From positions 310,001-374,000 of the forward strand of contig NW_023501060.1 of the NCBI RefSeq assembly GCF_014066305.1: DNA of 64,000 bases. The letters are read 5' to 3'. The first letter of the stretch is position 1, and each line of letters opens with the position of its first letter. A program made the translations under genes and the position numbers. A model generated the notes under the pieces. That model saw only the letters and a list, made by a program, of their open reading frames with translations. It ran no database searches and was not told the origin of the DNA. The DNA comes from Letharia columbiana (taxonomy: Eukaryota; Ascomycota; Lecanoromycetes; Lecanorales; Parmeliaceae). This document shows positions 48,887-54,378 of the stretch, piece by piece.

Positions 48887-49015
48887 AAATAAAAAAAAAA
48901 AAAAAAAAAAAAGGGGGAAAAGGGGGGGATGTGGCGTTTGGGGGGGGGCCCGGGGGGGGGGGTGGTTTTTGGGGGGGATAAAAAAAAAAAAAAAAAGGGG
49001 GGGGGGGGAAAAAAA
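48887..49015. other. Homopolymer A/G block, probable assembly artefact
   Basis: Runs of A and G with almost no C, directly abutting the start of the left long repeat. A similar block abuts the right copy. See finding. Confidence 0.7.
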
Positions 49016-49248
49016 ATAGCCATGGGCAAACATAGCCATGGGTAATATAGCCATGGGCAATAGTAGCCATGGGTGACATAGCCATTGGCAACAGTGGCCA
49101 TGGGTGACATAGCCATTGGCAACAGTAGCCATGGGTAACATAGCCATGGGGAACAGCCATATAGCCATGGCTATGGTGTGCCAGGGTAATCAGTTCACTT
49201 GGCGCATATGTGGAACTAACACGCCTGGAAGGCTGAGATGTATCCCCC
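49016..49248 (+). repeat. Left copy of long direct repeat (LTR part) with 15-bp minisatellite
   Basis: Begins with about ten units of ATAGCCATGGGYAAY, then a unique tail (GTGTGCCAGGGTAATCAGTT ... CGCCTGGAAGGCTGA). Matches the right copy with mostly C-to-T differences. Confidence 0.85.
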
Positions 49249-51080
49249 GAAGTGATCCGATTTACTATGGGCCACAAGCCGAAATCGGATGACTCGAAGG
49301 GACGAATCTCCAGTGATTTGGCAAGCGACTTTTTGCATTTATATCAGGCCCATGCCCACTGCATGAAGTTCTTTCCTTATATTCTATCTATCTATATATG
49401 CGATCTATTTATATAGTATTTATATATAGTCCTAGCTCTAATTATATTGGGTATAGCTTATTATATTACTAATAGATTATAAGCTCGAATAGTTATTAAT
49501 CGAGATTTTAGTCTTTCGCTATATCTATTTATCACCGCTATAGCTCTAAATACTAGAGAACGCAGCCGTCTCGAGAATTCCATCGAAGGATACTCGGGGG
49601 TAGAGCTGTAGTAGACTAGGGAATAAGATCGTTTATTCGCTAAATAGATAGCGTTATTAACTAAGGGCCTTTCTTATTTAAAAAGAAAAGAAAAGAAGGA
49701 AGAAGAGGAGAAAGAAGATCTTCTACTCGATTTAAATAATTTACTAATAGTCGATTTATTAAAGAAATTAAATAAGGGACTTATTAGTAAACTATACGTT
49801 AAAATAAAAGTTCTAAAGGATTTAAACTATTATCTATAAATCTAGAATTATTAATAGTTTTTCGAGGAATAAAATATCTTTAAAATAGTGTTAGAGGAAT
49901 TATTAATATCTATATAATTCGATAGAAAGCTAGTTAAACGATAAACTATTTTAGATAAATAAATCGCTATACTAATTAAAGATAATATTAATCGAAATTA
50001 GAAGAGTTATATCGCCTATCTTATTACTTTTAAGTTTATATAAAATAAGCTTCGTCGAATTTATGAAATAAGTAATAAAGAACATCTTCTAATTATATTA
50101 TAGAAGTTTTTTAAATATATTAAGTTAGTAGACTAGACGATTAATTAAATAATAATAGATTTATAAAACTTATAAAACGAAGTTATAAATTTAAATTCAG
50201 TTTATATATTATATAATCTTACTATAGCGACGATAATTATAAATACTTATTAGAAGAGTAAGTTTAATATAATTAAATATAACTTAAAGATTAACGATAA
50301 TCTTACTATCGAAATAATTATAGAATATCTACGAATTATAAAATAAGATAGATAGATTAAGAATAAAGGCTTATTTATATATAATAAACGAAAGGACTAG
50401 CTAGACTAAAGATCTTCTAGAAATATAAGTAAGATAGAATACTATAGCTGTGGGAAAATCGGGTATTATAAGAGAGAGTATTCGAATAAGAAGAATAAAA
50501 AGAATAAGAATTATAAAGCGAAGGATTTAGATAAGCGAAATCGTGAATTAAAGGATTAATTAAAGGATTTAAAGATATTTAAAGATAGTAAGCGAGGATA
50601 TTTAGATCGTACTATAGTAGTAGCGAAAAAATTAGATAGTAATAGTGATATTAGCGATATAAGTAATATATATAATCGAAAGAAAAGCTTATAAATAATT
50701 AGGGAAAAGCTAGAGCCTATAGATAATACACTATTAGTGAAGAATTTCTTTATAATAGTAGACTTTTTAGAAGATAGTAGCTAACTAATAGACTTCGAAG
50801 CGACTCGCTATATAATATTAAATAAGAAACTATTTATCGACTTATAGTCTTATTCGAAAGAAGTAGAATTCGATAATTAAGATAAGTTAATAGCGATAGA
50901 TAGAGAAATTATTCGAATTCGTATGAATAATTATATATAGATTATAATAGATGCTTTATATATTTCGAGAATAAATAATAATCTACTATCTATTATAGTA
51001 CTAAATCGAAAGGATTTTAAGATATAATTCGAAAATCTATATATTAGAATTATTAATATATTTATAAACGAGACGGTAGT

Positions 51081-51228
51081 TGTTAAGGAATCATTATGAT
51101 TTGACTCATATATGTGTGTGGTGTAAAAGATGTTGAGTATCTATGTACGGAGTAGTCTGCAGGCAGATATGTGCGGTGCCAAGCCTACGCTAGTGGCCCT
51201 ATGAGTATCCCTGAGGCATCTCATGACA
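51081..51228 (-). repeat. LTR (3' LTR in element orientation)
   Basis: 148 bp, TG...CA ends, identical by eye to 52275-52422. Confidence 0.95.
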
Positions 51229-51405
51229 ATTGCCCACAAAAAACAGAGAAATGCCATGTCCTCATGGCAAGAAGTATGCATGCATGATTTTTCGAAAAAC
51301 CGGAAAGGAGTGGAGACACCGTGCTAATTAGTGGTGTGCATCCCACGAAATCTCCTGCTGGAATGAAAACTTTTGAATAGTACCGGAGCAAGACATCGGA
51401 CGGTT

Positions 51406-52092
51406 TCAATTCGTCCAAATATGTATCGTCCGATCTTCCTCCTGCAGTGGCCCAATTGGCTGTGATCGTCGCAGTAGATCCTTCTCTTGTATCGTCAACT
51501 CAATGATATGCCATATCAATACGATATCGCCGAGGCACGCAGAGATAGCAGGCCAAATTGTAGTGTCATTCTCCGCTTGCTGAGTGGCGATTTGACGGGG
51601 GATTGTGGAGAGGTAAGCCGTGTTCTTGACGATGGTGGCCTTGTTGCCGCTTGGTTTCTCCGCCGTGTTCTCCGCCGTGTTCTCCGCAGTATTCTCCGCA
51701 TTTGCCTGTTGTAGTTCCTCCTCTTGTAGAGTATCAGACTGAGTGGCTGACTGAGTGGATGACTGAGTGGCTTGCTGAGTAGCTGACTGAGTGACTGGCT
51801 GTAGAGACCTTCTCGTATATTGCTGGCGAGTCTTCTGATTCCGGTGCTTCTTCTTCTGCTGTGTTGCACGGACGAATGGACACTCCGGTGATCGAGTAGC
51901 GTGGAAATCGAATGGATTATCACTATCCCAGTCACAAGGATCAAGACCGCATAGTGAGCACACCGTTAGATCCGGGGATGGAAAAGTAGGGTCGAATTCT
52001 CGATGAAAGCCAGCACGGGCTACGTCAGAGGCACTTGGATATACGTGTGGCCATGACGTGAATGAGGCAAGTCTTGCAGCGTATGAGTTCAT
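51406..52092 (-). CDS. BIR (IAP/survivin-type) domain protein encoded by LTR element
   Basis: 228 residues from ATG 52092. Residues ~7-74 match a BIR domain: RLASFTSWP, then a stretch of ~18, ARAGF, then the zinc ligands C45xxC48, H64 and C71, with the conserved W55 and D58-NP between them (CSLCG...CDWDSDNP...H...SPECPF). The C45-x2-C48-x15-H64-x6-C71 spacing is within the family's range. A basic linker (KKKHRNQK) and Gln/Thr/Ser-rich segment with TQSATQ and AENT repeats follow, then ~80 residues without recognised domain. In fungi the only well-known BIR protein is Bir1/survivin of the chromosomal passenger complex. A single BIR inside a mobile element suggests capture. Whether the protein is expressed or helps the element is unknown. 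Confidence 0.85.
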   Translation of the reverse strand: MNSYAARLASFTSWPHVYPSASDVARAGFHREFDPTFPSPDLTVCSLCGLDPCDWDSDNPFDFHATRSPECPFVRATQQKKKHRNQKTRQQYTRRSLQPVTQSATQQATQSSTQSATQSDTLQEEELQQANAENTAENTAENTAEKPSGNKATIVKNTAYLSTIPRQIATQQAENDTTIWPAISACLGDIVLIWHIIELTIQEKDLLRRSQPIGPLQEEDRTIHIWTN

Positions 52093-52254
52093 TGTGATAT
52101 CGACAGGCCTATTGAAAGGATCGATTTGGACGGTGTCAAAAGGTACTCGATGACTGCGAGTGTGTTGGAGGTCCGGCTTGGAGCGTCACACTATTAGGTG
52201 TTGATGTGGGCTTTGCGTAAACGTCTGATGACGCCTGGATATCCTATGAAGTAG

Positions 52255-52272
52255 GGCCAGGTGTTGCTACCA
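52255..52272 (-). other. Primer-binding-site-like sequence
   Basis: Minus strand reads TGGTAGCAACACCTGGCC, starting two bases inside the 5' LTR. The TGG start is expected for pairing with a tRNA CCA end. The primer tRNA is not identified. Confidence 0.6.
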
Positions 52273-52274
52273 AT

Positions 52275-52422
52275 TGTTAAGGAATCATTATGATTTGACT
52301 CATATATGTGTGTGGTGTAAAAGATGTTGAGTATCTATGTACGGAGTAGTCTGCAGGCAGATATGTGCGGTGCCAAGCCTACGCTAGTGGCCCTATGAGT
52401 ATCCCTGAGGCATCTCATGACA
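52275..52422 (-). repeat. LTR (5' LTR in element orientation)
   Basis: 148 bp, TG...CA ends, identical by eye to 51081-51228. Confidence 0.95.
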
Positions 52423-53333
52423 GTAGTAAGGGATTATGTGAGGAATAGCCTATATTAGTTAATCAAATCGATATTTAATAGAGTATTCGCTTTTAGAAAG
52501 TCGGGACCTTCTAATAAAAGTATATTTATATTTACGAAATAAGGATAAGTCGATTATTTTCGATTAATATATTAACGATTAAGTTATATCGAAGCGTATC
52601 GCCTAAAGAACTTATATTTCTATATAAGAGGTATAGAGGAAATAAAATTATCGGATAAATTTATAAGACTTATACTTAGCTAATTAAACTTATTTATAAG
52701 CTTCTAATTAGAGGCCGTAGTCTATATAAATTATTTAAAAAATAGATTATTATATGATAGTAGAGAGAGTAAGTTATTCTATAAACTATAGTTTAATAAG
52801 ATATCGAATATTACATCGTCGTCACGAATCGAAGAAATTAAAGATATACGGGATTCTTAAATAGAGGGAGAAATTTCTACTAACTCTTTAGAAAATACGA
52901 ATAATAGTGAAGATTCGAGATTAAGTAGTTTAAACGTATATTAAATTAAATCGAAATTTCCGCTAGACCTTTATAAAGCTAGAGAGACTCTTAATATCTT
53001 AAATAGTAAGAAAATAATAAACTAAGGGACGGTATCTGAGGTTAATATTTAATAATCTATTATATCTACACCTATCTCTAACCCTTCTAATTATACTAAA
53101 TAACGTCTTATATCTTAAACCGCTATCTATCTTAGAAGAATAAACTAAAGAATTATATTAAAAGTTTGCGTTATTTCTCTACTTTCTCTGCTTTCTCTAT
53201 AGAGATTTTTTCGAAGAGTGATATCAACTGTTTGCTCTATCATCTCTGTCTTCTCAGTGGCCAAATGAAGAGAGAGTGTTGATTTTGATGGCTTATGGCT
53301 ATTAGCCACAATGTGGCTGGGGGCTACAGCCAT

Positions 53334-53567
53334 ATAGCTATGGGCAAATATAGCCATGGGTAATATAGCTATGGGCAATAGTAGCCATGGGTGACATAGC
53401 CATTGGCAACAGTGGCCATGGGTGACATAGCTATTGGCAACAGTAGCCATGGGTAATATAGCCATGGGCAACAGCCATATAGCCATGGCTATGGTGTGCC
53501 AGGGTAATCAGTCTACTTGGCGCATATGTGGAACTAACACGCCTGGAAGGCTGAAATGGGACCCCCA
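53334..53567 (+). repeat. Right copy of long direct repeat (LTR part) with 15-bp minisatellite
   Basis: Same minisatellite and tail as the left copy, same orientation, ending where a homopolymer block begins. Confidence 0.85.
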
Positions 53568-53571
53568 AAAA

Positions 53572-53722
53572 AACCCATTTAAAAAAGGCCCAAAAAAAAA
53601 AAAAAAAAAACAAAAAAAAAAAAAACAAAAAAAAAGGGGAAGAAATATTTTAAAAAAAAAAAAAACCACACCCAAAAAAAAAAAAATTTTCTTTTTTTTA
53701 TAAAAAAAAAAAAAAAAAAAAA

Positions 53723-53800
<78 letters not shown>

Positions 53801-53804
53801 GGGG
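53572..53804. other. Homopolymer A (and terminal G) block, probable assembly artefact
   Basis: More than 200 bp almost entirely A, ending in a G run, directly after the right long repeat. Not plausible as an ordinary poly-A tail in both position and length. Confidence 0.7.
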
Positions 53805-54378
53805 CTTAGGCAGCGATGTGCGAATGCTTCCGCCGATGAAGCGCATTTGTTCTCTAAGCAAAAACCTGTTGTGGAGGATAGACGCGGTGAACCGAAAAAG
53901 GGGGCGGGGACTGTTCTTACTGATAGGTGGTGAGACTGGAGTACGTTTCTGACGGCTTGGCGCCAAGCTATCGGCAGAACTTTAAGACTGGACGTATAAC
54001 ATACTTACTCGAAATAAATAGGCGGTGTAAATTGAGAAATTTGACCGACAGAGAATATCTATTCAATGTGTTTCACGACCACAGCCTTCCCTTATCGTTC
54101 TCGTTGGTGCCTGACTAGCAGGTCACATAGGTGTGATAGACCTTTCATCCGAAATTGCAGCTGCCAAATAATACTACGGTTCGACTGTCCGATTCATATC
54201 ATCCCAGCTATATGCTCGCCACCAGGCACATATGACGACGCAATGGCCTCTTGCCAGATACCTCTCCAGTCTATGTACTTGCTACTAGCCACATGTGATG
54301 TTCCCACGATCAATGTCCATCTAAGCAACCTCCAGGATGGGGATTGCTGTCCTACCCATTCCGTGCTCGTAAACAATT
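53805..54378. other. Unannotated flank
   Basis: No gene motif seen between the A block and the tRNA-like sequence. Confidence 0.5.

Follow-up and report, generated by a model that had tools for sequence, protein, structure and literature searches.

A short long-terminal-repeat element of Letharia columbiana with a constrained BIR domain in frame with a putative Gag remnant

The window analysed here, a 64,000-nucleotide stretch of the Letharia columbiana genome (assembly GCF_014066305.1, contig NW_023501060.1, positions 310,001 to 374,000), contains a long terminal repeat (LTR) element of 1,342 bp excluding its GTAGT duplications (51076–52427 with them), coding on the minus strand (Table 1). 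The original prediction, a young non-autonomous LTR element with a BIR gene, stands and is extended by many further copies, whereas the gene is not purely BIR and is better described as a fusion of a BIR domain with a putative Gag remnant. As predicted, the two 148-bp LTRs (51081–51228 and 52275–52422) are identical, have TG..CA termini, and GTAGT is found on both sides. The primer-site-like sequence, which adjoins the 5′ LTR, can now be specified as a 16-nt complement of the 3′ end of initiator tRNA-Met, the added CCA included; the corresponding gene lies at C10:345717-345944. A purine-rich tract was looked for before the 3′ LTR, and only a conserved T6-GTGGG stretch was found there. The accompanying hairpin has a counterpart, CCACGAGGACGTGT, in the related element L075 described below, in which the inner pair is preserved through a two-sided change; in the wider hairpin listing beyond the 17 elements of Table 1, the search pattern itself fixed part of the motif. 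The pol domains (reverse transcriptase, RNase H and integrase) are absent from the window element, and its sole long open reading frame (ORF) consists of the BIR domain and the apparent Gag remnant.

The complete BIR zinc signature that had been read in a single 228-codon ORF is borne out by the profile search, in which the ORF matches Pfam BIR (PF00653) at an E-value of 8.2e-10 and 39.5 bits, against a curated cut-off of 22.9, and phmmer matches include survivin, NAIP, BIRC6 and inhibitor of apoptosis (IAP) structures. Across ten proteins (alignment A3), the zinc ligands C45, C48, H64 and C71 together with W55 are invariant and D58 is nearly so. The basic stretch RNxxTRxQYxRRxLQ is conserved as far as protein P0050, whose BIR is 53% identical to that of the window (39/74) and retains the zinc ligands. 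In the phmmer alignment, W55 and D58 align with the tryptophan and the acidic residue of the survivin groove, with L50 and R67 at the phosphate-contact places; this arrangement would allow peptide binding by the predicted BIR groove. Two proteins from ENA contigs (P0016 and P0017) carry a BIR and the same basic motif ahead of a different tail, GYIRxAEEMEATGQG, and may represent a BIR head riding a second chassis.

Table 1. Features of the BIR-bearing LTR element, in window coordinates
Feature	Position	Strand	Basis or remark
Target site duplication GTAGT (left)	51076..51080	.	Letters read
3′ LTR, 148 bp	51081..51228	-	Identical to 5′ LTR
Conserved 3′ end preceding 3′ LTR: hairpin and T6-GTGGG stretch	51229..51273	-	Candidate polypurine tract or packaging signal (putative role)
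Hairpin CCATGAGGACATGG	51254-51267	-	Letters present in 17/17 LTR-paired elements
ORF, 228 codons: BIR, basic tail, Q/T repeats, putative Gag remnant	51406..52092	-	ORF list, Pfam
Exchangeable N-terminal module, codons 1-97: BIR and basic RNxxTRxQYxRRxLQ motif	51802..52092	-	Homology edges
BIR domain, residues 7-74	51871..52074	-	Pfam, phmmer; zinc ligands C45, C48, H64, C71
Linker, Q/T-rich with AENT repeats	51655..51801	-	dN/dS resembles control frames
Putative Gag remnant, residues 167-211	51460..51594	-	Aligns with Gag profile positions 174-216
Primer binding site TGGTAGCAACACCTGG	52257..52272	-	Complements initiator tRNA-Met 3′ end including CCA, 16 nt
5′ LTR, 148 bp	52275..52422	-	Identical to 3′ LTR
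Target site duplication GTAGT (right)	52423..52427	.	Letters read

The BIR codons are under purifying selection. Ratios of nonsynonymous to synonymous change (dN/dS) were computed by the Nei-Gojobori method (NG86) with the window ORF as the reference for the aligned columns, using 9 of 13 aligned rows after exclusion of near-copies of the window element (L009-L011) and of L015, a near-copy of L013. Codons 1-78 gave a dN/dS of 0.42 (95% interval 0.24-0.74) over nine lineages, 0.19 (0.08-0.40) over the six less decayed lineages (of which L012 and L017 each have one BIR stop), and 0.17 (0.06-0.39) over the three lineages with open ORFs, whereas the same codons in the two other frames gave 0.88-3.03 overall and 0.88-2.38 in the nine- and six-lineage sets; the pairs are non-independent and the six-lineage set was picked after the pairwise ratios were known, so that the nine-lineage value is the conservative one. 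Singly, the window BIR gave ratios of 0.12-0.23 against L012, L013, L014, L015, L017 and L018, and of 0.47-0.75 against L016, L019 and L020, which look more decayed. The linker (0.51-0.65) falls within the range of its control frames (0.50-1.86) and thus exhibits no clear constraint, and codons 151-227, the Gag-like segment included, exhibit weak constraint (0.53-0.62; control frames 0.66-1.06). Among the other N-terminal heads described below, that of L022 and L026 has few changes (four synonymous and two other over 75 codons). In the Gag-N class, comparison of L029 with L038 and with L071 gave a dS of 0.049 and a dN of 0.188 over 31 codons (L031 and L074 were dropped from the five rows), and this excess of amino-acid over silent change speaks against a general rule of constrained heads.

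A whole-element DNA search of the genome (52.2 Mb in 161 contigs) returned at least 118 matching pieces, 40 of 558 candidates having been scored. Near-full-length copies with matching ends lie elsewhere at 98-99% (three) and 83-89% (seven) identity, and since their flanks and most of their target duplications are distinct, the LTR pair of the window element is genuine rather than a duplication of the assembly. From 39 fetched places, 17 LTR-paired elements were examined, comprising 11 BIR elements (the window copy and L009-L018) and six with other heads (L022, L024, L026, L029, L031 and L038). A 5-bp target duplication is present in all except L009 (16/17); for L031 the LTR edge was shifted one base by eye to give it, and for L038 it is visible only with an altered dinucleotide allowed at each end. 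The 15 LTR pairs of equal length differ by 0-10 bases, with zero differences in the window copy, L013 and L029. The frame is open from the BIR into the tail in five of the 11 BIR elements (window, L009, L011, L013 and L014). Older BIR copies (L021, LTR-paired and ∼90% identical, and L023) contain many stops of the C-to-T type. Related proteins occur in Letharia lupina, and a scan of viral_contigs found no relative. At other places (L033, L034, L036, L039, L040, L042, L043, L045 and L046) the segment of linker and Gag-like tail is tandemly repeated several times, and in at least L033 and L034 the repeats are followed by an LTR start of the TGTTACGG type.

The elements sit within AT-rich islands resembling the products of repeat-induced point mutation: over 400 bp on each side of the 17 elements, flank GC is 0.01-0.39 as compared with 0.46-0.49 for the elements and 0.498 for the window, and flank TA/AT is 0.98-1.39 as compared with 0.68 in the window. 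In 1-kb steps, positions 49001-54000, which contain the element, form an AT-rich island in an otherwise ∼0.5-GC window. A role of the BIR as target selector is ruled out by the alike flanks of BIR and non-BIR elements; the AT-rich landing is more likely set by a helper integrase or by survival.

The homology edges among these elements reveal that the N-terminal module (codons 2 to ∼97) is exchangeable, as judged from the sequences, with at least three other heads preceding the same tail. At the DNA level, L022 matches the window element over positions 1-333 (331-333 being the ATG) and again from 622, at about codon 97. L024 has the same edges, matches on C72, C91 and C28 break in the same way, and the homology of L026 extends to 348; the leaders of L029 and L071 are more diverged. 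The head MQEFLQ.. occurs at two intact and two decayed places and MASNTF.. at one. Gag-N heads take the form PGFSxxQV or PGISxxQL in L029, L031, L038 and L071 and MSSNSQ.. in P0057 and L079 (P0063 is similar), and L072/L073 have yet another head. The right-hand joint falls within the Q/T repeats, a setting that would favour template switching. The predicted element that transduces a BIR gene is upheld only in that a BIR is carried: fused with a basic tail, a Q/T linker and a putative Gag remnant, it does not amount to a freely transduced host gene. At least four heads, the BIR among them, occur with this tail.

The nature of the shared tail is indicated by a gag-bearing relative, L075 (C50:290275-291997), reached via a primer-site pattern search. 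This 1.7-kb element has identical 153-bp LTRs, ACCGC on both flanks and a 390-aa ORF, and its LTR and primer-site regions are 76% alike to those of the window element over about 140 bp. A Pfam search of the L075 ORF matched no family, and homology to long gag-pol ORFs was used instead. It matches a 2,335-aa ORF at C3:1386516 (39% identity, E 1.8e-61), directly downstream of which lie RVT_1 and RNase H domains, with an LTR and primer-binding-like site upstream, as well as ORFs of 2,197, 1,250 and 1,096 aa at other genome sites; beyond the genome, homologues comprise proteins of Usnea florida and of Imshaugia aleurites, together with P0133, a protein with an aspartyl protease domain. Because of these long-ORF matches, the protease-domain homologue and the downstream RVT_1 and RNase H domains, the L075 ORF is interpreted as a Gag, and the element itself as gag-only. 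At C108:34831-36000 there is an ORF 98% identical to that of L075. A profile built from eight such Gags was scored on just the excised tail of the window ORF and gave 20.2 bits over Gag positions 174-216 (∼43 residues), as compared with 8.0 bits for the best of 4,000 shuffles (2,000 each of this tail and of L071). L038, which retains the PGFSxxQV N-terminus of Gag, scored 24.2 bits (and E 3.4e-5 in the separate search with the L075 ORF), L029 19.2 bits and P0020 18.2 bits. Pfam itself finds no Gag domain in the window ORF. By this homology, the ORF tail is assigned as a 43-residue remnant of a Ty3/gypsy-type Gag. In L079, an L075-type 5′ end and Gag C-terminus are joined to the same middle tail segment, so that it looks like an intermediate.

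With regard to the source of the BIR, PF00653 matches 17 places in the genome, 11 of them within the element family. The remaining six comprise two in a gene at C25:552 kb, which by resemblance we take to be Bir1, a pair in a gene with two BIRs at C25:181 kb, a single match in a small single-BIR gene (C69:47924-48127; L050, HO173_011276, P0138) and one on C1 that contains a stop. The longest ORF with any of these matches is 361 aa, so none lies in a gag-pol ORF. A branch with 97/97 support in a 12-row tree unites the element-type BIRs with P0050 and the C69 gene and separates them from the Bir1-like and two-BIR genes; in place of the relationship to Bir1 that the original prediction had raised, the element BIR thus groups with the small C69 gene. 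Given the short domain, the five open forks among nine and a long-branch warning, the tree is used only against Bir1 as the source. Both the tree and the lack, in the element, of an insert present in the Bir1-like gene argue against Bir1 as donor. The window BIR is identical to the C69 gene at 37/71 positions (score 195) and to the Bir1-like gene at 34/67 (score 134). The C69 gene may be a donor, a cousin or a domesticated copy; a protein search with it returned its own cluster only.

As gag-only and gag-pol relatives also occur in this genome, the best reading, and one we consider probable, is a non-autonomous LTR retroelement that parasitizes a helper in trans with a truncated Gag, the BIR of its mini-Gag being kept by selection. 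It would have arisen through internal deletion in gag-only elements akin to Ty3/gypsy, the BIR-plus-basic head having replaced the Gag N-terminus while a short Gag piece remains in the tail, and the enzymes of a gag-pol relative would probably mobilize it. Given that selection keeps the BIR codons, the BIR may aid the spread of the element or be otherwise needed where it is made. How it might act is more tentative: in the likeliest mechanism, the BIR groove could bind an N-terminal peptide (the tail of a histone, for example, or a processed protein end) and thereby tether a ribonucleoprotein or particle to chromatin or a host factor, with the basic stretch binding RNA or acting in nuclear import and the Gag piece contacting the helper Gag. 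More speculative again is a general scheme of modular LTR parasites with an exchangeable Gag N-terminus, in which the selected BIR head would read an N-terminal peptide and serve as a survivin-like chromatin tether in place of an integrase chromodomain.

Several observations weigh against this interpretation. The nine-lineage BIR interval (0.24-0.74) overlaps that of the linker (0.41-1.04), six of the 11 LTR-paired BIR copies contain a stop or frameshift, and zinc ligands are lost in some copies (L016). What we take to be the phosphate contacts of survivin are not kept (L50 and R67 instead), and R67 presumably occupies the position of the XIAP groove tryptophan. On the Gag side, full-length BIR-type rows (P0001, P0002, P0005, L013, L014 and P0050) score only 3.5-12.6 bits, some about equal to the best shuffle, and the Gag call accordingly rests on the window tail, L038, L029 and P0020. 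The helper is putative: the LTR of the C3 gag-pol element differs, and L078, the stretch read for it, yielded no 3′ LTR. Finally, BIR (11) and non-BIR (6) elements share their AT-rich landing context.

Among the alternatives, an inhibitor of cell death, protecting the cells that host an active element so that both survive together, is unlikely. The constraint on the BIR codons speaks for it, yet the tree separates the element BIRs from the Bir1-like gene, R67 stands where we assume the XIAP groove tryptophan to be, and the fusion to Gag would be left unexplained. BIR domains are anti-apoptotic in IAPs and fungal BcBir1 is reported to be so, but according to that report BcBir1 requires its two BIR domains (PMC3158057), whereas the element protein has one. 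Slightly less credible, and already disfavoured, is that the BIR is a piece of a host gene caught by chance in a TRIM-like element and carried as inert cargo: gene capture is reported in many plant LTR elements (PMC3726574) and the six broken copies would fit, but BIR dN/dS values of 0.17-0.42 against 0.88-3.03 in control frames, and zinc ligands retained in database proteins at 53% BIR identity (P0050), do not. Domesticated gag genes can benefit their host by interfering with elements, and the Gag piece, whose homology was computed, could conceivably poison assembly of the helper Gag; that the fusion is kept for such a host benefit is nonetheless improbable, as the insertions are repetitive and young, with no fixed single gene, and the head is exchanged between elements. 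An assembly artefact or chance repeat can be dismissed, as many copies have distinct flanks and duplications and related proteins occur in Letharia lupina, even though the long reads behind the assembly, taken from whole thallus, contained three genotypes (PMC10512270).

The initiator tRNA-Met gene matched by the primer site (L070, L066) is itself split by three introns of 50, 49 and 57 nt that have a spliceosomal look (GT...CTAAC...AG). From 45 three-intron splicings of 70-76 nt, a 72-nt product was chosen; ARAGORN reports tRNA-Met(cat) for at least eight of the 45, with differing boundaries. The exact anticodon-arm pattern of an uninterrupted initiator tRNA gene has no match in the genome, and the D-arm pattern matches exactly at the C10 gene and with one mismatch at three other places. 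At five primer-site matches outside the fetched elements, ARAGORN with introns allowed found no tRNA; one yields a tRNA after removal of three introns, L065, L067 and L068 resemble related LTR elements, and L069 is neither. To our knowledge, such tRNA introns would be very unusual, and open-access titles and abstract openings among the matches listed held nothing on spliceosomal-type tRNA introns; these matches included a paper on disrupted tRNA genes (PMC3978253).

Terminal-repeat retrotransposons in miniature (TRIMs) are without a coding domain, whereas the window ORF carries a Pfam BIR domain that is constrained; the likeness lies in its 1.3-kb length and short LTRs (∼140-150 bp). LTR elements with extra or transduced ORFs reportedly include maize Bs1 and Boty of Botrytis with its brtn gene. 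In these, too, an LTR element encloses foreign coding sequence, but the window-type BIR, which occurs in many copies, shares its frame with a putative Gag remnant and is one among several exchangeable heads. Such elements have been reviewed (PMC7264820), and the length rule for TRIMs, under 2 kb, is given in PMC6022998. The same source describes, in plants, TR-GAG elements (terminal-repeat retrotransposons with a GAG domain), which have gag, or gag and protease, as the sole coding domain. With LTRs, a primer site and a gag-type ORF only, L075 fits that description; the window element differs in that its Gag appears cut to about 43 residues with the N-terminus replaced by BIR or other heads, and in being fungal. 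Ty3/gypsy gag-pol elements share the Gag homology, the tRNA-iMet primer site and the 5-bp duplication, whereas protease, reverse transcriptase, RNase H and integrase are missing here. Fungal Bir1 and survivin (BIRC5) share the BIR signature and zinc ligands, but the first BIR of the Bir1-like gene at C25:552 kb contains a long insert, and the element BIRs group away from this gene. No BIR-carrying LTR element is described in open-access titles and abstract openings among the matches listed, with bioRxiv and most subscription papers outside this set. On present sequences, the element would be classed as a variant of gag-only or TRIM-like non-autonomous elements, with a putative role for its BIR.

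Several copies stand in public records as ordinary hypothetical proteins, which makes the family relevant to annotation of lichen fungi. A domain of cell division and cell death here lies in frame with what appears to be a Gag remnant, under selection and within a mobile element that has sister elements with other heads. This makes testable what short LTR parasites may gain from a protein, and how they might recruit host domains.

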